Shown piece by piece: positions 27,196 to 52,608 of a stretch of 64,000 bases of DNA. The first letter of the stretch is position 1; each line of letters starts with the position of its first letter. The stretch is from Sulfurovum sp. (GTDB lineage Bacteria; Campylobacterota; Campylobacteria; Campylobacterales; Sulfurovaceae). The notes below the pieces were generated by a model. That model searched no databases and had not been told where the DNA came from. It saw nothing but the letters and a program-made list of their open reading frames with translations. Made by a program: the position numbers and the translations under genes. The DNA lies in contig JALXCZ010000035.1 of NCBI GenBank assembly GCA_026990595.1, positions 1 to 64,000 on the forward strand. The letters run 5' to 3'.

Positions 27196-30100
27196 TTATT
27201 TAAACACTCTTTCACAATCTTTAATAACAGCTCCCGGTACAGTTGCAATGGTCATGAACTCTGACATTTGAAGCAGCGGGTACATGACTGAGATATAATA
27301 TTTCGGATCTAGTATTTTTGCTTCTCCATTTTCTATAAGCACAGGGTAGGGAAGTAAGGCAGCATTGTTCGTACCGATACGCCCTGTGAATTTACTGGTT
27401 CTTTTACCCAGTTTTACACCTATTAATGTTGCCCCATTTTCAAGTTTTTGGCTAAAGACCACCTTTTTATTGTTCTTTATTTTTGAGAGAAGATCATTTC
27501 CCCGTGCCACGACAGTCATCTCTTCATAATGAGGCATACCGCTCATGAACTGATATTTTGGAAGCAGTTGGAACTTGAGCATATCTTTTGAGTTGAGCAT
27601 CCCTGTAAATACAGCAGTCAGTTTTGCCAAAGTGGCTTTTGCTTTTTTCTCATCAAAGTCTTGCTGCATGAATGCTTTTGCCATATAGAGCGGATTGGTA
27701 ATACTGATATGGTTGTCTTTTTTATTGACAAGAAGACGTAAAGATGCCATGAATCCCCGGTTCGGTTTGCTTGCCATTTTTATGAGTGCTTTGTCAGTAA
27801 AGACAATGGAGACAAGCTTGCCTTTTTTGTCAACCGGTGTAGTTGCAACGATCTCAAATCCTGCTTCTTTGAGTTTTGCTTTGGCAGCTTTTACATCCAT
27901 AAATCTTCCTCTTAAATAGGCGGATATCTTTCCTTTGTTAACTCCTCCGATATTGGTATCGGTATTTTTAGGTTTAGCTTCCTGTGTACGTTTTTCAGGC
28001 GGCACATAATTTGGTGGAACACGTTTTGAGAACTTGATCGATCTGGTGTCACCATTGACTTCACCGTTAGTGATGGTTCTCACCTGAATCACAGAAGGTA
28101 CTTTTGGTGGTGTTGGAATAGTGATCTCTACAGTATCTCCGCCAGTTTCTATTTTGATACTTGCATTTTTTTCTTTGGATGCTTTTTGCCTTTTAGGTGA
28201 TGTTGCAGTATGCTGTTGTGTAGCACTTTTCTGTTTTTGTTTAGATGCAGTTTTAACCGGTGTAAGAGCAACTTTTACAGGATTTGGTGTCTTTTGGCTT
28301 TCCTTCTTAGGCAGAGCTTTTGGTGTCTCTTTGAGCGGATTAACATTGGTAATGGCTTTCATGCCTAATGAAGTTAATATCTCAGGTATCTCGTTATCAA
28401 GTTTGTTGACCAGAGCTACGCGTTTTTTATCGGTAATATCCAGTGTATCTGACCAGTTATGTAGTCTTAACATGCCTACAACCAATTTATTGGAACCTTT
28501 TTTAATGTACATATACATAGTACACGGAGCAAAGAGCCCTGCATTTGGCTGCGCACCTTTATTGTCGAACATATTATATGAGAATTCCAAATGACATAGA
28601 GAGTAGGTCCAGAAAGCATCATATCCTTCTAAAATATCTTCTGCATTATCTGTGGCATCCATAAAGTTATGGTATCCGGCAATGAGGTACTGTTTCCCAA
28701 TAAAAGCCAGTTCAAACTTGTTTTGGAATTCATCGATGAAATCTTCCAGATCATCGGGTATTTCAAATTTGTATTCAAAGTTCATCATACGTGTTTGGGG
28801 TAAATTTTTGTATGGCAAATATGATTTAGTATATTCTATACCGTTCTCTTTGAATTTCTCTTCCAGTTTTGCATTGAGGGGAGCAAATGATGCAGTAAAG
28901 GTATCTCTTACTTTTTGATCTTTTATCCCTATCATATCAAGGAAAGCAGCAGGTACCAGATGACCAACATGCGTTACTTTTTCATCAAGCTTTTTTTGTA
29001 TGAGCATATTGAATGGTGCAGTAGAAGCAATACGCGGATCGATATTTAACAGAGGTAATATCATTTTGTCATTGGCAACGGAAAGGAAACTAAGTAGATC
29101 AAGTACGGTGGAACCGTATTTCTTTTTATACTGATCATTCACACGAAGATGAGGATCAGTGACTTTAAAATTAATCTTCTTTAGCTCTTCTTCTATGATC
29201 TTGTTATATTTTTTTTCAACATTCTCTCCTTTTAATGTATACATAAGTGCCAATGTACCTTTTGGTGCAGTATTAGTCACTTTTGCATGTATGTTTGGCA
29301 TGTTTGTTGTTGCTGCAACTTTTGTTTGTGTTGGGCTCTCATGTGTCTCTTTTTGTGCCAAAGTATTGACATTTGCAATAGCCTTCATACCCAGAGAAGT
29401 GAGTATTTCAGGAATCTCTTTGTCTAGCTTTTCTACAAGTGCTACTCTTTTTGCATCCGTAATACCCAGAGTATCTGTCCAATTGTGCAGTCTGTACATA
29501 CCTACAACCAATTTATTTGAACCTTTTTTAATATACATATACATGGTACACGGAGCAAAAAGTCCTGCTTCCGGATGTGCATCTTTATTGTCAAACATAT
29601 TGTATGAGAATTCCAAATGACATAGAGAATAGGTCCAGAAAGCATCATACCCTTCCAGTATATCTTCAGCATCATCTGTGGCATCTATGAAATTATGGTA
29701 TCCGGCAATGAGGTATTTCTTATCAATAAAAGCCAGTTCAAATTTATTTTGGAATTCATCGATGAAATCTTCCATATCATCAGGTATTTCGAATTCATAT
29801 TCGAAATTCATCATTGTTTTTTCCGGCAGTTTTTTAACAGCTATGTAACTCTTCTCTCCACCAAGGTCTTTTTCTATCAGTGCATCAAGTGATTTAAATG
29901 TTGCAGTAAATTTCTCTCGAACTTCCTGGTCTTTAATACCGAGAATATCAAGCATTACTTTAGGCATAAGATGACCTACGTGGGTTTTATTTTCATCAAG
30001 TTTTTTTGTAATAAGCATATTGAACGGTCCAAATCCGGCAATACGTGGGTCTATGTTCAGTAAAGGGAGTATTGCTTCATCATTGACAACGGGCATAAAA

Positions 30101-30375
30101 CTGAGTACATCCAGTACAGTAGAGCCGTATTTGGCTTTGTATTGGTCATTTACACGTTTATGGGGGTCAGTCAGGTTAAAACCGATTGTTTTTAATTTTT
30201 CCTCTACGAAAGCATTATACTTATCCTGTATATCGCCTTCAATTGTATAAAATACTGCCAGGGAATCTTTTTCAGATGCAGCTGTTGTATTTATCGTCTG
30301 TGGTATTGTCGCCAAAAGCAGTGAGGGAATAAAGAGAAGCAAACTATGAAGAATGATTTTTTTCAGGGTGTGCAT
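27196..30375 (-). CDS. Large exported protein with two DUF302-like repeats and a C-terminal module
   Basis: A 1059-aa protein of unknown function with a signal peptide (residues 1-22). Residues 37-336 and 373-676 are two near-identical repeats. Each contains an internal segment (LCHLEFSYNMF, then GLFAPCTMYMY and a basic, strand-rich stretch) that matches the DUF302 pattern of a Cys, a short helix and a GxxxPC strand. A Lys/Pro/Thr-rich linker (about 680-815) leads to a C-terminal module (820-1059) that is homologous to the separate protein at 51613-52608. DUF302 function is unknown; a periplasmic binding role is plausible. It follows the 11-mer-repeat protein gene on the same strand. Confidence 0.75.
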   Translation of the reverse strand: MHTLKKIILHSLLLFIPSLLLATIPQTINTTAASEKDSLAVFYTIEGDIQDKYNAFVEEKLKTIGFNLTDPHKRVNDQYKAKYGSTVLDVLSFMPVVNDEAILPLLNIDPRIAGFGPFNMLITKKLDENKTHVGHLMPKVMLDILGIKDQEVREKFTATFKSLDALIEKDLGGEKSYIAVKKLPEKTMMNFEYEFEIPDDMEDFIDEFQNKFELAFIDKKYLIAGYHNFIDATDDAEDILEGYDAFWTYSLCHLEFSYNMFDNKDAHPEAGLFAPCTMYMYIKKGSNKLVVGMYRLHNWTDTLGITDAKRVALVEKLDKEIPEILTSLGMKAIANVNTLAQKETHESPTQTKVAATTNMPNIHAKVTNTAPKGTLALMYTLKGENVEKKYNKIIEEELKKINFKVTDPHLRVNDQYKKKYGSTVLDLLSFLSVANDKMILPLLNIDPRIASTAPFNMLIQKKLDEKVTHVGHLVPAAFLDMIGIKDQKVRDTFTASFAPLNAKLEEKFKENGIEYTKSYLPYKNLPQTRMMNFEYKFEIPDDLEDFIDEFQNKFELAFIGKQYLIAGYHNFMDATDNAEDILEGYDAFWTYSLCHLEFSYNMFDNKGAQPNAGLFAPCTMYMYIKKGSNKLVVGMLRLHNWSDTLDITDKKRVALVNKLDNEIPEILTSLGMKAITNVNPLKETPKALPKKESQKTPNPVKVALTPVKTASKQKQKSATQQHTATSPKRQKASKEKNASIKIETGGDTVEITIPTPPKVPSVIQVRTITNGEVNGDTRSIKFSKRVPPNYVPPEKRTQEAKPKNTDTNIGGVNKGKISAYLRGRFMDVKAAKAKLKEAGFEIVATTPVDKKGKLVSIVFTDKALIKMASKPNRGFMASLRLLVNKKDNHISITNPLYMAKAFMQQDFDEKKAKATLAKLTAVFTGMLNSKDMLKFQLLPKYQFMSGMPHYEEMTVVARGNDLLSKIKNNKKVVFSQKLENGATLIGVKLGKRTSKFTGRIGTNNAALLPYPVLIENGEAKILDPKYYISVMYPLLQMSEFMTIATVPGAVIKDCERVFK
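28348..28788 (-). repeat. Second copy of the internal 0.45-kb coding repeat
   Basis: This stretch encodes residues 530-676 of the 1059-aa protein and matches the DNA at 29368-29814 (residues 188-336) with long runs of identical bases, for instance around the GSNKLVVGM and YDAFWTYS segments. The weaker match extends to about 29259 and 30267. Confidence 0.8.
29368..29814 (-). repeat. First copy of the internal 0.45-kb coding repeat
   Basis: Encodes residues 188-336 of the 1059-aa protein. It is the partner of 28348-28788. The conservation at the DNA level suggests recent duplication or ongoing gene conversion within the gene. Confidence 0.8.
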
Positions 30376-30521: not shown

Positions 30522-31430
30522 TTATTTTTTAGCAGCTTCTTTTAGTTTAAGGTATTCATCGTACTCATCTTTTGAAAGTGTTCTGTCTCCAACATTGTCA
30601 GAGACATCTTTGACTGAATCTCTTGTATCATTTGAAATAGTCTTAGTTGAATCATTTGCATTGTCAGAAACATCTTTTACAGAATCTCTCGAATCGTTAG
30701 AGATTGTTTTGGTGGAATCATTGACATTATTCGATATTGTTTTAGTAGAATCATTTGCATTGTCTGACACATCCTTTACAGAATCTCTTGAGTCATTCGA
30801 GATAGTTTTAGTTGAGTCATTGACATTATCGGAAATGGTTTTAGTAGAGTCATCCATATCATTTGAAACTGTCTTTACAGAATCTCTTGAGTCATTCGAA
30901 ATTGTCTTAGTAGAGTCATTGACATTGTCGGAAACATCTTTCACTGAATCTCTTGAATCGTTGGAAACTGTTTTTACTGAATCTCTCGAGTCGTTAGAAA
31001 CGGTTTTTGTTGCATCGGTTACATCGTGAGAAACCGAAATGGCAGAATCTTTCATGTCTTTTGAAGCAATCGTGGTAGAGTCTTTAAGATCTTTTGTTGT
31101 ATTTGTAATGGAATCTTTTGTGTCTTCTGCAAGTTCAACAGTAGCATCTCTGGTATCTTTACTTGTTGATACTTCAGCAGTTTTAAGATCATCTGATACT
31201 TTTACCGCAGAATCTTTTGCATCTTTACTTACATTGGTTACGGTTCTTTCCGCACTTTTACTTGTTTCGACCGCACCATCTTTCATAGATTCCACAGAGT
31301 CTTTTGCATCTTTACTCATACTGATAGCAGCTTCTTTCATATCTTTGAACATGTCTCCGAAACTAAAATCTGCCTGAGCACTTGTAAACAGTGCAGCAGC
31401 AGCTACACATGATAGTAAGGTTTTTTTCAT
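30522..31430 (-). CDS. Exported 11-residue-repeat protein, LEA-like
   Basis: A 302-aa protein with a signal peptide (MKKTLLSCVAAAALFTSAQA) and then roughly two dozen tandem 11-residue units such as DSVKDVSDNAN and DSTKTISNDSR, rich in Asp, Ser, Lys, Thr and Val. Hydrophobic residues fall at positions 3, 6 and often 10 of each unit, a hendecad pattern that gives an amphipathic helix or right-handed coiled coil. Such 11-mers characterise group 3 LEA and related desiccation or envelope-stress proteins. The C-terminus (LSKDEYDEYLKLKEAAKK) is non-repetitive. Exact function is unknown. Confidence 0.7.
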   Translation of the reverse strand: MKKTLLSCVAAAALFTSAQADFSFGDMFKDMKEAAISMSKDAKDSVESMKDGAVETSKSAERTVTNVSKDAKDSAVKVSDDLKTAEVSTSKDTRDATVELAEDTKDSITNTTKDLKDSTTIASKDMKDSAISVSHDVTDATKTVSNDSRDSVKTVSNDSRDSVKDVSDNVNDSTKTISNDSRDSVKTVSNDMDDSTKTISDNVNDSTKTISNDSRDSVKDVSDNANDSTKTISNNVNDSTKTISNDSRDSVKDVSDNANDSTKTISNDTRDSVKDVSDNVGDRTLSKDEYDEYLKLKEAAKK

Positions 31431-31603: not shown

Positions 31604-32014
31604 ATGAAAAGATTACTTATAGGCTTAACGGTTGCAGCAACATTCGCTTCAGCAGAGGGTTATTCGCAAGGTGACAGAATACTCGATATGCAAAAAATGG
31701 CACAGGCAATGCAGGATATACAGTCCGGATTGCTTTATAATAATGAAGATATTATCAAAGCCGGAACAAAGGTGCTCAAAGAGACGATCGTAAAGATACG
31801 TCCGATAGATTCGGAAGTGAACAATAAAGATATTTATGAAAAGTGGCTGCAAAATGATTTGAAAATGACCAATAAAATACAGAAAAAGATCAGAAAAAAA
31901 GCAGAAATAGTAGAAGATCGTTTTTCTACAGGAGATGCAGTACAGGCACTGCAGGCATATACAAAGATCATCGGTCAATGTATGAAATGTCATGTACGTT
32001 TAAGAAAGTGGTAG
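31604..32014 (+). CDS. Cytochrome c'-like (class II) periplasmic protein
   Basis: A 136-aa protein with a signal peptide (cleavage near residue 18) and a helical body. A single haem-binding CMKCH lies close to the C-terminus (QCMKCHVRLRKW), the placement typical of class II cytochromes c such as c' and c556, which form four-helix bundles. The fold assignment rests on length and motif position. It is followed at 48 nt by an efflux-type adaptor gene. Electron-transfer partner unknown. Confidence 0.7.
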   Translation: MKRLLIGLTVAATFASAEGYSQGDRILDMQKMAQAMQDIQSGLLYNNEDIIKAGTKVLKETIVKIRPIDSEVNNKDIYEKWLQNDLKMTNKIQKKIRKKAEIVEDRFSTGDAVQALQAYTKIIGQCMKCHVRLRKW

Positions 32015-46430: not shown

Positions 46431-49400
46431 ATGTCAGAAGAACCAAAGTCAACCCCGTCATTTACCCATTTACACCTTCATACGGAGTACTCTCTGCTTG
46501 ATGGTGCAAACAAGATCAAAGCTTTGGCAAAGAAGGTAAAAGAGTTGGGCATGACCTCTGTAGCCATGACTGACCACGGTAATATGTTCGGGACGATCGA
46601 CTTTTATAATACGATGCGAAAAGAGGGTATCAAACCTATCATAGGTATGGAAGCCTATGTGCATAACCAGGAAGAGTTGGGTGACAAGTCTGTACGTCAG
46701 CGTTTTCACCTCTGTCTGTATGCAAAGAATGAAACAGGGTATAAGAACCTAATGTATCTCAGCTCTAAAGCCTATATTGAAGGATTCTACTACTATCCGC
46801 GTATCAACTGGGACTTACTCAAAGAGAATGCAGAGGGGCTTGTCTGTTCTTCTGCCTGTCTGCAAGGTGAAATCAACTGGCACATGAACCTCAGTGATCG
46901 AAATAAAAAGTTCGGTGCAAAGGGCTATGAAGAAGCAAAACAGGTAGCACTCAAATACAAAGAAGTCTTTGGTGATGACTTTTATCTGGAACTTATGCGT
47001 CACGGGATCGGTGATCAGCACCGTATTGACAAGCAGATCATTCAACTCTCCCAAGAGACAGGCATTAAGATCATTGCAACCAATGATACGCACTACACAG
47101 TACAAAAAGATGCCGATGCTCATGAGGCATTCATGTGTATTGCGATGAACAAACTCTATGATGACCCAAACCGTTTGCGTCACTCTGTGCATGAGTTCTA
47201 TGTCAAGTCACCCCAGCAGATGGCAGAACTTTTTGCGGATATTCCCGAAGCACTTGAGAATACGCAGGAGATAGCAGACAAATGTAACCTTGAGATAAAA
47301 CTGGGGAATCCGACACCGCCTAACTTTAAGTTTGCCAGAGAGAGAGCGGCAGAATCCGGTATTGAACTTCCTGAACCGGATATGGAATATTCATTGGAAA
47401 ACGATAGGATTCTTTTTGTAGAAGAGTCCAAAAAAGGCTTGGAAAAACGTCTTAAAATTGTCCCGGAAGAGAAGCATCAGGAGTATAGAGATAGACTAAA
47501 AGTTGAAATGGACATTATTAATTCTATGAAGTTCCCAGGTTATATGCTGATCGTTTGGGATTTTGTGGATGCAGCAAAGCAAATGGGTATTCCTGTGGGA
47601 CCGGGACGTGGTTCTGCCGCAGGTTCTCTTGTGGCTTTCTCTCTTGAGATCACCGATATTGACCCGATGCCTTACGGATTGCTTTTTGAGCGTTTTTTGA
47701 ACCCTGAACGTATCTCTATGCCGGATATCGATATGGACTTCTGTCAGGCACGCCGTCAGGAGATACTGGACTATGTGGTAGAGAAATACGGACGAGTGAA
47801 TGTGGCACAGATCATTACTTTCGGTAAGTTGCTTGCCAAAGGGGTCATTCGTGATGTGGCACGTGTGCTTGATATGCCTTATGCCAAAGCAGATGCCATG
47901 GCAAAGCTTATTCCTGATGAGTTGGGGATAGATCTTAAAAACTCATATGCAAAAGAGCCCAAGATCAAAGAGCTGCTTGAGAGTGATCCTCAGGCAAAAC
48001 GTACCTGGGAATATGCTTTGGCACTGGAAGGACTGAACCGTAATGCAGGAACGCATGCCGCAGGGGTGGTTATATCGAATGAACCGCTTTGGCAGAAGAC
48101 ACCGCTTTTCAAACCTTCTGGACTGGATACACTGGCAACGCAGTACAGCGGGAAATATGTAGAAGATGTTGACCTGATCAAGTTTGACTTCCTTGGGCTT
48201 AAAACATTGACGGTCATTGAAGAAGCACTGCAGCTTGTAGAGCGTCGTCACGGTAAACGGATCAACTTTGTTGAAGAGAATATTGAAGATCCTGCTGTGT
48301 ATGAGTATATAGGCACAGGTGAGACACTTGGACTTTTCCAGATAGAATCGGCAGGAATGCAGGACTTGGCGAAAAAGCTCAAACCAAACGGTTTTGAAGA
48401 TGTTATTGCAATGCTTGCACTCTACCGTCCCGGACCTATGGAATCAGGAATGCTTGATGATTTTGTGGAACGTAAGCATGGACGCGCAGAGATCACTTAT
48501 GCGTTTCCTGAACTGGAGCCTATACTCAAGCCTACGTATGGGGTCATTGTCTATCAGGAACAGGTCATGCAGATCGTGCAGACCATCGGCGGGTTCAGCC
48601 TTGGTGGTGCTGACTTGGTGCGTAGGGCAATGGGTAAAAAGATTAAAGCTGAGATGGATAAACTTCAAGGAGAATTTGCTGACGGTGCAGTTAAAAAGGG
48701 CTTTGACAGACAAAAAGCCTTTGATCTGTTTGACCTTATTGTAAAGTTTGCCGGGTATGGTTTTAACAAATCCCACTCTGCAGCCTATGCAATGATCACT
48801 TTTTATACCTCTTATCTTAAGTATTACTATCCTACGGAATTTATGGCGGCGATCTTGACATTGGAGAAAAATAATACAGATAAGGTTGTCCGGTATGTCG
48901 ATGAACTAAAACGTATGGGTATCAAACTTCTTCCACCGGATATTAATAAATCAGGACTTATGTTTGAAGCACGTAATATAGATGGTGATGAAGTTGTTAT
49001 GTTCGGTATGGGTGCTGTCAAAGGGGCAGGGGATATTGCCATCAATACTATGCTGGAGGCTAGAGGCAATGAGGAGTTTAAAGACTTTTCAGACTTTGTT
49101 TCACGTATTGACTCCTCTAAAGTTAATAAAAAAGTCATTGAATCACTCATCAAAGCAGGGGCATTTGACAGTTTTGGCTATAGTCGTAAAGCGATGCTTT
49201 CTCAGATAGAAGATATCATAGAAATGGCAAAAAAAGCCGGAGATGCCAAAAAGCAGGCAGTGAATTCTCTCTGGGGTGATGATGAGGAAATGACTTCTGT
49301 AACACTGGAACTTGCAGATATGCCGGAATTTGAACCTATGGAGATATTGGAGATGGAAAAAGAGTCCTTAGGCTTTTATGTTTCAGGGCATCCTCTGGAC

Positions 49401-50000
49401 AAATACCGTGAAACCTTGACAGGTATCAACTATACGTTAAGTTCAGAGATAGATGATCTGGCAGATGGTTCACAGGCAATGTTCATAGGGAAGATAGAGA
49501 ATATTACGGAGAAGATAAGTAAGAAAGGAAACAAGTTTGGTATTGCCAATATCATGGATCTGCATGGGAATATTGAACTCATGCTCTTTGAAAACCGCCT
49601 CAAAGAGCTGGAGGAGGACTTTGACCTTACAAAACCTATAGCTTTTAAAGTCAAAATCAGTAAAGATGGTGACTTTACACGTATGAATATTTTAAAAATC
49701 TCTAACATAAAAGATGCCAAAAAAACCAAAGTCAAAGTAGAAAAAGAGGTCAAACACATCCCTGAATCTGATCAACCACCACTCATTCTTTCACTTAATC
49801 TTAGTAAAGATACAAAAATAATTAGAGATTTGAATGTTTTAATCAAAGAGTGTCATGGAAAACGACCATTGGAGTTACGTATTAAATCTAAAAATGCCGA
49901 TGTCATCATAGAATCAAAACTTAAAGTGAGTGAAATGATCCTGGAAGAGGCGAAAGAGCTTGGGGTTTACCTGGAAGAGAGTCTGGCTGTCGTAGATTAG
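46431..50000 (+). CDS. dnaE: DNA polymerase III alpha subunit
   Basis: The 1189-aa replicative polymerase. An N-terminal PHP domain (HLHLHTEYSLLDGANK near residue 12) is followed by the C-family palm, with PDIDMDF near residue 431 giving two of the catalytic Asp and GRGSAAGSLVAF near residue 391. The FNKSHSAAYA thumb/finger region is near residue 780, and an OB-fold (FIGKIENITEKISKKG) near residue 1020 precedes the tail. Length and order are normal. Confidence 0.97.
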   Translation: MSEEPKSTPSFTHLHLHTEYSLLDGANKIKALAKKVKELGMTSVAMTDHGNMFGTIDFYNTMRKEGIKPIIGMEAYVHNQEELGDKSVRQRFHLCLYAKNETGYKNLMYLSSKAYIEGFYYYPRINWDLLKENAEGLVCSSACLQGEINWHMNLSDRNKKFGAKGYEEAKQVALKYKEVFGDDFYLELMRHGIGDQHRIDKQIIQLSQETGIKIIATNDTHYTVQKDADAHEAFMCIAMNKLYDDPNRLRHSVHEFYVKSPQQMAELFADIPEALENTQEIADKCNLEIKLGNPTPPNFKFARERAAESGIELPEPDMEYSLENDRILFVEESKKGLEKRLKIVPEEKHQEYRDRLKVEMDIINSMKFPGYMLIVWDFVDAAKQMGIPVGPGRGSAAGSLVAFSLEITDIDPMPYGLLFERFLNPERISMPDIDMDFCQARRQEILDYVVEKYGRVNVAQIITFGKLLAKGVIRDVARVLDMPYAKADAMAKLIPDELGIDLKNSYAKEPKIKELLESDPQAKRTWEYALALEGLNRNAGTHAAGVVISNEPLWQKTPLFKPSGLDTLATQYSGKYVEDVDLIKFDFLGLKTLTVIEEALQLVERRHGKRINFVEENIEDPAVYEYIGTGETLGLFQIESAGMQDLAKKLKPNGFEDVIAMLALYRPGPMESGMLDDFVERKHGRAEITYAFPELEPILKPTYGVIVYQEQVMQIVQTIGGFSLGGADLVRRAMGKKIKAEMDKLQGEFADGAVKKGFDRQKAFDLFDLIVKFAGYGFNKSHSAAYAMITFYTSYLKYYYPTEFMAAILTLEKNNTDKVVRYVDELKRMGIKLLPPDINKSGLMFEARNIDGDEVVMFGMGAVKGAGDIAINTMLEARGNEEFKDFSDFVSRIDSSKVNKKVIESLIKAGAFDSFGYSRKAMLSQIEDIIEMAKKAGDAKKQAVNSLWGDDEEMTSVTLELADMPEFEPMEILEMEKESLGFYVSGHPLDKYRETLTGINYTLSSEIDDLADGSQAMFIGKIENITEKISKKGNKFGIANIMDLHGNIELMLFENRLKELEEDFDLTKPIAFKVKISKDGDFTRMNILKISNIKDAKKTKVKVEKEVKHIPESDQPPLILSLNLSKDTKIIRDLNVLIKECHGKRPLELRIKSKNADVIIESKLKVSEMILEEAKELGVYLEESLAVVD

Positions 50001-50337
50001 GTTTTCTATTCTATAAGACAGCAAATACTTCTCACCTTTGGAGGGAAGGTGAGGATAAGGTTTTTAGTAAAAAGGGACCGTACTTAAAACTTATATATAA
50101 AACTACTTAACATAAAGAGGGAGTAATATGGTATAACTGCCTTTTATTTATTGAGGGTAGACCCAATATCTTCCTCCCAAGATATTTCGGTTCAAATAGA
50201 AACCATTTGAACACTTAAAGTATAAACAACTTACATTACCAAAATGTTAAAGACACAAAATATTACCGCACTAAGTAAATACACATATATTTCACAGTGA
50301 AAAGTGTACACTTCATTATGACTGAATGGAGATAAGT
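50001..50337. other. Intergenic region after dnaE with several hairpins
   Basis: No gene was found. CTCACCTT (50031-50038) with AAGGTGAG (50046-50053) is probably the dnaE terminator. Further palindromes are AATATCTT-CCTCCC-AAGATATT (50165-50186) and TTCAAAT-AGAAACC-ATTTGAA (50191-50211), adjacent to each other and possibly operators or a structured leader for the next operon. Confidence 0.5.
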
Positions 50338-50781
50338 ATGAAAAGACTCTCGCTTGAAACCCTGCAAAACAAGATCATTACCTATCAAGTCATAGTCATG
50401 CTCAGTTTTGTATTCGGTGTTCTCGGTTTTATGTATAACAACTGGCGATACGAGCATAATGAAAACAATAACAATATACGTATTGCAAGTTTTCAGATAC
50501 TTAAGGAACTCTCCACGTTGGAGCAGATCATCTATGCCAACCATTATGACCATGACAGCATTAAAGGCAGCCCCCGTGACGGTTGGGTAAAAGTAGGGCT
50601 CATCGGTGATCTCTCTTTGTTCATTTCACCTGAATGCGAAGAGGCTTCAAAGGAGCTTACCATGCTTTGGAAAAAGAGTTGGCATAAGATACATACAGAT
50701 GATAAGATCACAAATAGACTGATAGAAAAAATAGATAAGGTAAAAAGTGTTACACGGAATGTCTTAAAGATCCTGTATTGA
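50338..50781 (+). CDS. Single-helix membrane protein of unknown function
   Basis: A 147-aa protein with one N-terminal membrane helix (VIVMLSFVFGVLGFMY, residues 18-33) and a mostly helical extracytoplasmic domain. ATG 50338 is chosen because GGAGATAAG lies before it. No conserved motif is recognised. It is the first gene of a small plus-strand envelope group with the DUF302 gene and its partner. Confidence 0.65.
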   Translation: MKRLSLETLQNKIITYQVIVMLSFVFGVLGFMYNNWRYEHNENNNNIRIASFQILKELSTLEQIIYANHYDHDSIKGSPRDGWVKVGLIGDLSLFISPECEEASKELTMLWKKSWHKIHTDDKITNRLIEKIDKVKSVTRNVLKILY

Positions 50782-50922
50782 GTAAGAGAATAGCTATAAA
50801 TTAAAATTATATATTTTATAATCATAAGTTAATCTTAATATTAATCTTAATTTTAACTTAGAATAATATAATTAGAGTAATAAACAGTAACGTAGTTACA
50901 AATAAATATATGAAGGAAAAAA

Positions 50923-51507
50923 ATGAAATTCTTAAAAACGATTTTAGCATTAATTGGAGCAGTGGTCATTGCCGCTATGATCTTGATAGGTGTAAAGTAT
51001 GGCGGTATGCTTAAGCAGTTTGACCCTGAGGCAATAGGTGCTTTTTCGAATATGGCAAAACTAGTACTCGAGACCGGAGATCCGGCAAAAGGGATGATCC
51101 TCAAGAAAAAAATGGTTATTCCTGAAGGGATGACAAAACAAGAGGCAATAGATAATGCGATCGAAGTGATGGATGAAGTTGCCAGTCAACATGGTTTAGC
51201 TATGGTAGATCATAAGGTGATGCCTAGAAAAACAGGTATCTATACACAGATCCGTTCCTATTGTTCTCCTACTATCGCAGATGTATTTTTAACCTATTCT
51301 GCAGAGTATGTCGGATTTATGCCTTGTAGAATAGGAATTATTGAAGAGCCTAACGGTGATATATATCTGTATACTATGAATTTGGATCTTATGATACACG
51401 GTGGTAAAAAACTACCGCCAAAGCTACGTGAACTTGCAATGGAAGTCAATGCGGGTATGATGGGTATGTTTGAATCTGGAGCCGCAGGTGAAGAGTTGGA
51501 AGAATAG
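50923..51507 (+). CDS. Membrane-anchored DUF302 protein
   Basis: A 194-aa protein with an N-terminal membrane helix (residues 4-23) and a DUF302 domain. IRSYCSPTIADVFLTYSAEYVGFMPCRIGIIEE near residues 106-138 shows the family pattern of a Cys, a helix, and a conserved PCR strand, followed by a Tyr/Met-rich strand. The domain resembles the internal segments of the 1059-aa protein at 27196-30375. DUF302 domains bind or sense an unknown ligand; none is established. It lies one gene upstream of the C-terminal module gene. Confidence 0.82.
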   Translation: MKFLKTILALIGAVVIAAMILIGVKYGGMLKQFDPEAIGAFSNMAKLVLETGDPAKGMILKKKMVIPEGMTKQEAIDNAIEVMDEVASQHGLAMVDHKVMPRKTGIYTQIRSYCSPTIADVFLTYSAEYVGFMPCRIGIIEEPNGDIYLYTMNLDLMIHGGKKLPPKLRELAMEVNAGMMGMFESGAAGEELEE

Positions 51508-51612
51508 ATAAAGATATTCATACATCCTTTAAACATAAATATTAATTATATATTTTATTAAGATTAATCAGTTAGAATATAATTACTATTATTAATGTTT
51601 AAAGGATTTGTT

Positions 51613-52608
51613 ATGAAATTAAACAGGTTTATATTAGCAATTGTATTCATGATCGGGGTTATATTTGCCTCAGAATTAAATATAGAAGAAAGTATCTCTG
51701 AAAAAGTATCTCTTCAGGATGAAAATAAACATCTTAAAGAGAAAATAAAAAAACTTGAAGTACAACTGCAAAGATTTACTCAGGTAAAACCTGTAGTAAG
51801 TTCTGCCGTACTTCCTCTCCAGTCAGCAAGAGAAAAAAAGACAGTAAGGGGAGCAAAATTTGTTCTGAGTACTACTGCTCCAAAAATATTAACTGCCTAT
51901 TATGTAGCTGATTATCAAACGGTAGATAAAGTAAAAAAGAAACTAGAAACAAATGGTTTTTTACTTCTTTCTGTCAATGAAATACTTCCCCATAAAACAG
52001 TACTGACTTTTACGAATGCTGAACTTCAAAAAACCAACAGTTTTTTGTCAGCTTTACACTTATTGGTAAATGATAATAGTGAAATACGTGTACAGAACCC
52101 ATCTTATTTTGGAGCAGCTTTTCTTCAGGATAAATACAAATATGGTCAATTTAAAGAAACACTTTTGAATTTAAAGACAGTCTTGGGAGAGATGTATGAA
52201 TCAGAAGATAAATTTGAATTCGATGAGCTTGCAGATTACAACTTTATGTTTGGTATGCCGGATAAGAATGATATGATCACTGTAGCCAAAGGCAATAGTC
52301 TTCTTAGTAGACTTAGGGAAGAGAATGCAACACAATATATAGCCTATTCTCTGCAACTTTCTAACGGAACAACACTTGTAGGACATAAACTTCAGCATAA
52401 GACATATGCATATCTAAAAACAATAAAAGAAGAACATAATGTACAACTCTTTCCTTATGAGGTGATTATTAGGGAAAATAAAGCAGTGATGCTGCATCCC
52501 AAATATTATCTGGCACTCTCTCTTCCTTTGTTAAGTATGACAGATTTTATGAAAATCGCATCTGCACCTGCTGAGATAGTAAAAGATATAGAAAAAGCAT
52601 ATAAATAA
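51613..52608 (+). CDS. Exported protein homologous to the C-terminal module of the 1059-aa protein
   Basis: A 331-aa protein with a signal peptide (MKLNRFILAIVFMIGVIFAS), a coiled coil (about residues 35-60) and a C-terminal domain from about residue 82. The domain matches residues 820-1059 of the large protein at 27196-30375: both share the order NPxYxxxAF, GMPxxxxMTVxAxGNxLLS, LENG-or-LSNG-TTLxGxKL, LxPYxVxI and DPKYY, ending xFMxIAxxPxxxxKD. Start at 51613 follows AAAGGA. Function unknown. Confidence 0.72.
   Translation: MKLNRFILAIVFMIGVIFASELNIEESISEKVSLQDENKHLKEKIKKLEVQLQRFTQVKPVVSSAVLPLQSAREKKTVRGAKFVLSTTAPKILTAYYVADYQTVDKVKKKLETNGFLLLSVNEILPHKTVLTFTNAELQKTNSFLSALHLLVNDNSEIRVQNPSYFGAAFLQDKYKYGQFKETLLNLKTVLGEMYESEDKFEFDELADYNFMFGMPDKNDMITVAKGNSLLSRLREENATQYIAYSLQLSNGTTLVGHKLQHKTYAYLKTIKEEHNVQLFPYEVIIRENKAVMLHPKYYLALSLPLLSMTDFMKIASAPAEIVKDIEKAYK

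Follow-up and report, generated by a model that had tools for sequence, protein, structure and literature searches.

A small DUF302 gene and a neighbouring C-module gene of Sulfurovum as possible members of a Sox-linked family of envelope proteins

A pair of neighbouring genes in Sulfurovum sp., one encoding a small DUF302 protein and the other a protein with a domain here called the C-module, may belong to a family of Sox-linked DUF302 envelope proteins that serve sulfur-oxidising Campylobacterota as sulfur-handling accessories of Sox. This reading is tentative and is held with somewhat less than even confidence. It is drawn from the co-occurrence of the small DUF302 protein with SoxC, the presence of double-DUF302 genes in sox clusters, the invariant cysteine pairs of these proteins and the FadL-type genes beside them. 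DUF302 is a widespread domain of unknown function, for which the near-complete dependence of one subfamily on SoxC and the double-DUF302 genes in both sox clusters of this genome offer a concrete, testable function. The uptake and oxidation of elemental sulfur by Campylobacterota of vents and sediments is an open question (PMC10045233). The DUF302/C-module envelope proteins, which are absent from the text of that paper, are candidates for a part in these processes.

The pair lies in the 64,000-nucleotide stretch of DNA that was analysed (the window; Table 1). The stretch comes from a sulfur oxidiser whose closest named relatives belong mostly to Sulfurovum. Its two genes run in the same direction, are separated by 105 bp and are flanked by dnaE (46431-50000) and by the genes for isocitrate and malate dehydrogenase, names that are a reading of the sequences. 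The C-module gene was taken to start at the ATG at 51613 rather than with the longer open reading frame from 51595, because an AAAGGA lies close by and a signal-peptide-like sequence begins there. A clear terminator-like hairpin follows dnaE on its 3' side (50029-50055, plus strand), and the pair is therefore probably free of read-through from dnaE. An Rfam search of the window gave no match. The initial annotation had the pair preceded by a single-helix protein, and a gene for a protein of 151 aa does exist there. Relatives of this protein were found in only 7 of 150 family genomes, and it was rejected as a conserved part of the system on account of this rarity. A remnant of it, with in-frame stops, occupies the corresponding dnaE-icd slot of another genome (G126:C7:47402-47527).

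Table 1. Coordinates of the gene pair, its upstream elements and the large fused protein in the window.
Feature	Position	Strand	Description
1059-aa fused paralogue	27196-30375	-	signal peptide, two double DUF302, linker, C-module
C-module of the 1059-aa protein	27199-27945	-	
Second double DUF302 of the 1059-aa protein	28300-29289	-	
First double DUF302 of the 1059-aa protein	29341-30291	-	
Gene for the 151-aa protein	50326-50781		upstream of the pair
AT-rich promoter-like element, small DUF302 gene	50826-50870		two TTAAGATTAA repeats (minus strand, 50829-50850) before a TATAAT-like box
Small DUF302 gene	50923-51507	+	194 aa, intact
Similar promoter-like element, C-module gene	51556-51590		one TTAAGATTAA (51558-51567)
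C-module gene	51613-52608	+	331 aa, intact

The two genes probably have separate promoters, since the C-module gene has a similar promoter-like element of its own. The exact 10-mer TTAAGATTAA, counted on either strand, occurs at three sites in the window, all of them directly upstream of the two genes, where TTAGAATA-TATAAT boxes of similar form follow it. Upstream of the small DUF302 orthologues in two other genomes (G014 and G098), the corresponding element is partly conserved. When one mismatch is allowed, the window contains TTAAGATTAA no more often than chance would give, and control shared by the separate promoters is therefore only a lead. The motif was not found in the sox stretches of the same genome, which ruled it out as a shared regulator motif at sox loci.

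The small DUF302 protein has been found almost exclusively in genomes with SoxC. It is present in 31 of 298 good Campylobacterota genomes and true SoxC in 51; SoxC accompanies it in 30 of the 31 (p 2e-26), the sole exception being a weak partial match. Fisher tests ignore kinship, a concern that is lessened by the within-family results and by matching absences in several genera. The link between the small DUF302 and SoxC amounted to 10/10 versus 1/10 within family f1 and to 19/19 versus 1/7 within f7, the latter comparison covering only genomes that appear in at least one result list. Many of the family genomes are incomplete metagenome assemblies. The dependence is one-way, of the small DUF302 on SoxC, because SoxC is often present without the small DUF302. 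Sox-located and slot-located small DUF302 proteins form separate clades, and the clade of the dnaE-icd slot alone shows a weaker association with SoxC (30/32 versus 37/56 good genomes, p 0.002).

The location of the genes has also been connected to Sox. A distance of at most 7 kb separates soxC from a small DUF302 gene in 11 genomes of f1 as well as in G195, and from a double-DUF302 gene, mostly its direct neighbour, in at least 27 f1 genomes; the probabilities attached to such gene proximity are crude. In the window's own genome, contig C44 carries a double-DUF302 gene beside soxCDYZ, and contig C32 carries two of them beside soxX, soxA, soxB and the gene for a SoxH-like hydrolase. The small DUF302 gene of the window is located outside the sox clusters, between dnaE and icd on contig C35, with soxC on C44. 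Neither gene of the pair is near sox genes, and it is the relatives of the small DUF302 in other genomes that are sox-linked. C-module genes were found in sox clusters of three f1 genomes (G043, G047, G062) and of three f7 genomes (G320, G334, G418), and in the latter three the double-DUF302 and C-module genes adjoin soxCDYZ. A gene for a FadL-type outer-membrane protein adjoins the double-DUF302/C-module unit in six genomes. The C-module does not track SoxC within families, and 14 good genomes have it without true SoxC; the within-family comparison thus ruled it out as a SoxC-dependent gene. Control genomes showed DUF302 to be present in many organisms without Sox.

The small protein consists of an N-terminal membrane anchor and one DUF302 domain. 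It exceeds the Pfam gathering cut-off for DUF302 (PF03625), weakly (25.9 versus 23 bits). Two of its cysteines, C114 and C135, are invariant in 24 of 24 relatives and line up with those of the DUF302 structure 1q9u, to which the PDB match is weak (E 0.035). The initial annotation had proposed that the two separate genes encode the modules joined in the 1059-aa protein; this is borne out for the C-module (E 3e-42) and fails for the small DUF302, for which BLASTP detected no similarity to the large protein (E 0.42). A profile-profile comparison matched the small DUF302 very weakly to the large protein's DUF302 domains, yet paired the two cysteines. BLASTP and the profile comparison together ruled out that the small DUF302 is a module split off from the large protein. 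The same genome also encodes two single-domain DUF302 proteins of canonical type, distant from sox genes (G000:C1, L109 7925-8389 and 13427-14008).

The DUF302 part of the large protein is of a different form. It consists of two copies of a domain of about 300 aa, each built of two DUF302 repeats and here called the double DUF302. The double domain scores 39.5 bits against the Pfam DUF302 cut-off of 23, which it passes as the small protein does. Its model (pLDDT 93.9) has 1q9u as best PDB match (TM 0.82 on target, E 1.1e-5). Its cysteine pair, C252/C276 and C594/C618 in the large protein, is invariant in 25 of 25 double domains and located in the second repeat. The known DUF302 structures (1q9u and 1j3m, the latter being TT1751) are single soluble domains. 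In contrast, one form described here is membrane-anchored and another is a tandem with cysteines only in its second repeat. The same model matches a 131-residue chain of PDB entry 7tj1 (TM 0.78 on target), whose title names a CrcB fluoride transporter and may be wrong.

The C-module protein contains a signal peptide or anchor, a coiled coil (residues 30-58 or so) and the C-module itself (about 85-331). Aligned with BLASTP, as the initial annotation had suggested, residues 817-1059 of the large protein and 93-331 of the 331-aa protein share 35% identity over 247 residues (E 3e-42). Profile searches of Pfam, NCBIfam and the PDB returned no relatives by sequence, which ruled out assignment to a known family on that basis; none of 29 C-module members matched Pfam DUF302. 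The C-module also differs from known DUF302 structures in having no sequence match and no conserved cysteine. Its predicted structure (pLDDT 95.1, pTM 0.92) nonetheless suggests a relationship. Foldseek placed the DUF302-fold entries 1q9u, 7tj1 and 1j3m among the top 15 matches of the model (TM 0.47-0.54 on target, probability near 0.9), with E values of only about 0.1-0.2 and roughly half of the model length aligned. The order of strands and helices repeats twice, in agreement with the double-DUF302 model. Judged by fold alone, the C-module is probably a degenerate tandem DUF302 fold. Its kinship to DUF302 is supported by fold only, since the profile-profile comparison of the two families with hhalign was insignificant.

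The partner of the C-module is the double DUF302. Among 66 distinct C-modules, whose neighbours were judged within the stretch seen, 21 share a protein with one double-DUF302 domain or two, and 16 follow immediately on a separate double-DUF302 gene of the same strand, with gaps of -16 to +64 bp and a 4-base overlap in nine cases. Two have only a small DUF302 upstream, and the remaining 27 have neither a double nor a small DUF302 in the stretch seen. In its true split form the pair consists of a C-module gene and the double-DUF302 gene just before it. Across 150 family genomes the presence of the two is strongly associated (81/97, odds ratio 11.7, p 9e-11). The idea that fused and split DUF302 and C-module domains act together in the envelope thus stands for the protein family, and does not extend to the pair in the window. 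In the tree of C-modules, the 331-aa protein falls in a clade rich in fused proteins, and the coiled coil at its N-terminus is similar to the linker region of one fused protein (45% identity, 39 bits). On these two grounds it most likely descends from a fusion whose double DUF302 has been lost. The tree is mixed, with the root and some forks unsupported, and suggests that several such losses have occurred. Repeated fusion to, separation from and loss of the double DUF302 by the C-module identify a partner domain that has no Pfam entry.

Is the pair, then, a two-component envelope system in which the domains of the large fusion are divided between two dedicated proteins, as first proposed? Of the 67 family genomes that contain a small DUF302 and a C-module, 4 have the small DUF302 gene immediately before the C-module gene. 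The window and G014 show the two as separate genes, and in G043 and G130 the neighbour is the fused form. This count exceeds a crude chance estimate and the G043 case lies in a sox cluster, so that an occasional functional link between the two may exist; the similar promoter elements upstream of both genes also speak for the proposal. However, the small DUF302 has no sequence similarity to the large protein, adjacency was seen in only those four of the 67 genomes, and other relatives have just one of the two genes at the dnaE-icd slot. What the slot contains varies: only one of the small DUF302, the C-module and the fusion, the small DUF302 with the fusion, or combinations with other genes. 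The adjacency in the window is thus one arrangement out of several. The small DUF302 and the C-module occur together in 67 genomes where 56 are expected (150-genome family sample), a weak excess, and their co-occurrence within f1 and f7 is not beyond expectation (p 0.85 and 0.96). An obligate two-protein system is not supported, because the C-module tracks the double DUF302 rather than SoxC or the small protein, and the small DUF302 for its part tracks SoxC. A dedicated system in the proposed sense is therefore considered very doubtful.

Two other explanations have to be weighed against a sulfur-handling role in Sox. The DUF302 and C-module proteins could be general envelope or stress proteins, which act with the products of FadL-type and RND transport genes, for instance in binding lipids or hydrophobic ligands, their position in sox clusters being secondary. 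The large protein is encoded among RND pump genes, efp and the gene for an apolipoprotein-like repeat protein, an arrangement that is conserved across genera, and the C-module genes in genomes without SoxC and the FadL-type neighbours are in keeping with such a role. This explanation is unlikely, though of appreciable weight, in view of the near-exclusive occurrence of the small DUF302 in SoxC genomes and the repeated presence of double-DUF302 genes in sox clusters. Alternatively, the cysteine pair, which is able to bind metal, could hold a metal or haem, and the proteins could serve the maturation of Sox cytochromes or of the SoxC cofactor. Genes for cytochrome c, thioredoxin-like and MOSC-domain proteins do occur in the same clusters. 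No CxxCH haem motif was found, though, and the columns that are invariant in the small family or in the double domain include no histidine, which leaves a role in maturation improbable.

Returning to the role as Sox accessories, the cysteine pair of DUF302 would be a thiol/disulfide or sulfane-sulfur site, a chemistry that is a guess, and would help supply SoxYZ and SoxCD with zero-valent or polysulfide sulfur. The C-module, as a part of the double-DUF302 protein, could serve for docking or for holding the substrate and take no part in catalysis. The C-module protein of the window may still serve double-DUF302 proteins encoded elsewhere in the genome. A more specific version can be envisaged, in which the small membrane-anchored DUF302 is a dedicated partner of SoxCD and the double-DUF302/C-module protein, with its FadL-type neighbour, is a periplasmic carrier that takes up elemental-sulfur chains and delivers them to SoxYZ. 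The degenerate C-module would be its half for docking or for holding the chain. This version is speculative and, in its full form, unlikely.

DUF302 genes have been reported in sox clusters of other bacteria. In the parts of the sources consulted, they are described in sox clusters of Acidithiobacillia, with a guessed role in trithionate oxidation (PMC5037610), and of Sulfitobacter (PMC11034169). Compared by these descriptions, the likeness is that a sox cluster includes a gene for a DUF302 protein of about 191 aa. The Acidithiobacillia genes, as described there, are tied to clusters that lack soxCD (PMC5037610), whereas the small DUF302 of Campylobacterota goes with SoxC; the double DUF302 and the C-module found here do not figure in those descriptions (PMC5037610, PMC11034169). 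In Sulfurovum indicum, a soxCDY2Z2-SoxH2 cluster is raised during elemental sulfur oxidation (PMC10045233). It is of the same type as the cluster with the SoxH-like hydrolase seen here, and the text of that study does not mention DUF302 proteins. The literature searched held no earlier report of a small DUF302 near-exclusive to SoxC genomes in Campylobacterota, of a double-DUF302/C-module unit that has repeatedly undergone fusion and loss, or of the C-module family, as yet unnamed. A search for FadL with cyclooctasulfur found nothing, and one for FadL with Sulfurimonas gave no title on the topic.

Several observations were made around the large protein and its relatives. Beside its gene, a secreted protein with repeated amphipathic units and weak apolipoprotein-like Pfam matches is encoded (30522-31430, minus strand), relatives of which adjoin the large C-module protein in several genomes. 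The large C-module protein and a membrane-fusion protein have a further conserved neighbour, a small protein (31604-32014, plus strand) that is secreted, carries a CxxCH haem motif and matches cytochrome c' weakly. In G024 (C1:1763642-1772226), three copies of the double DUF302 score identically, are evenly spaced at 3883 bases and represent either a tandem triplication or an assembly effect. A still longer fusion is present in G125 (C11:12861-16895), where an open frame of 1401 aa contains three double-DUF302 domains and a C-module.
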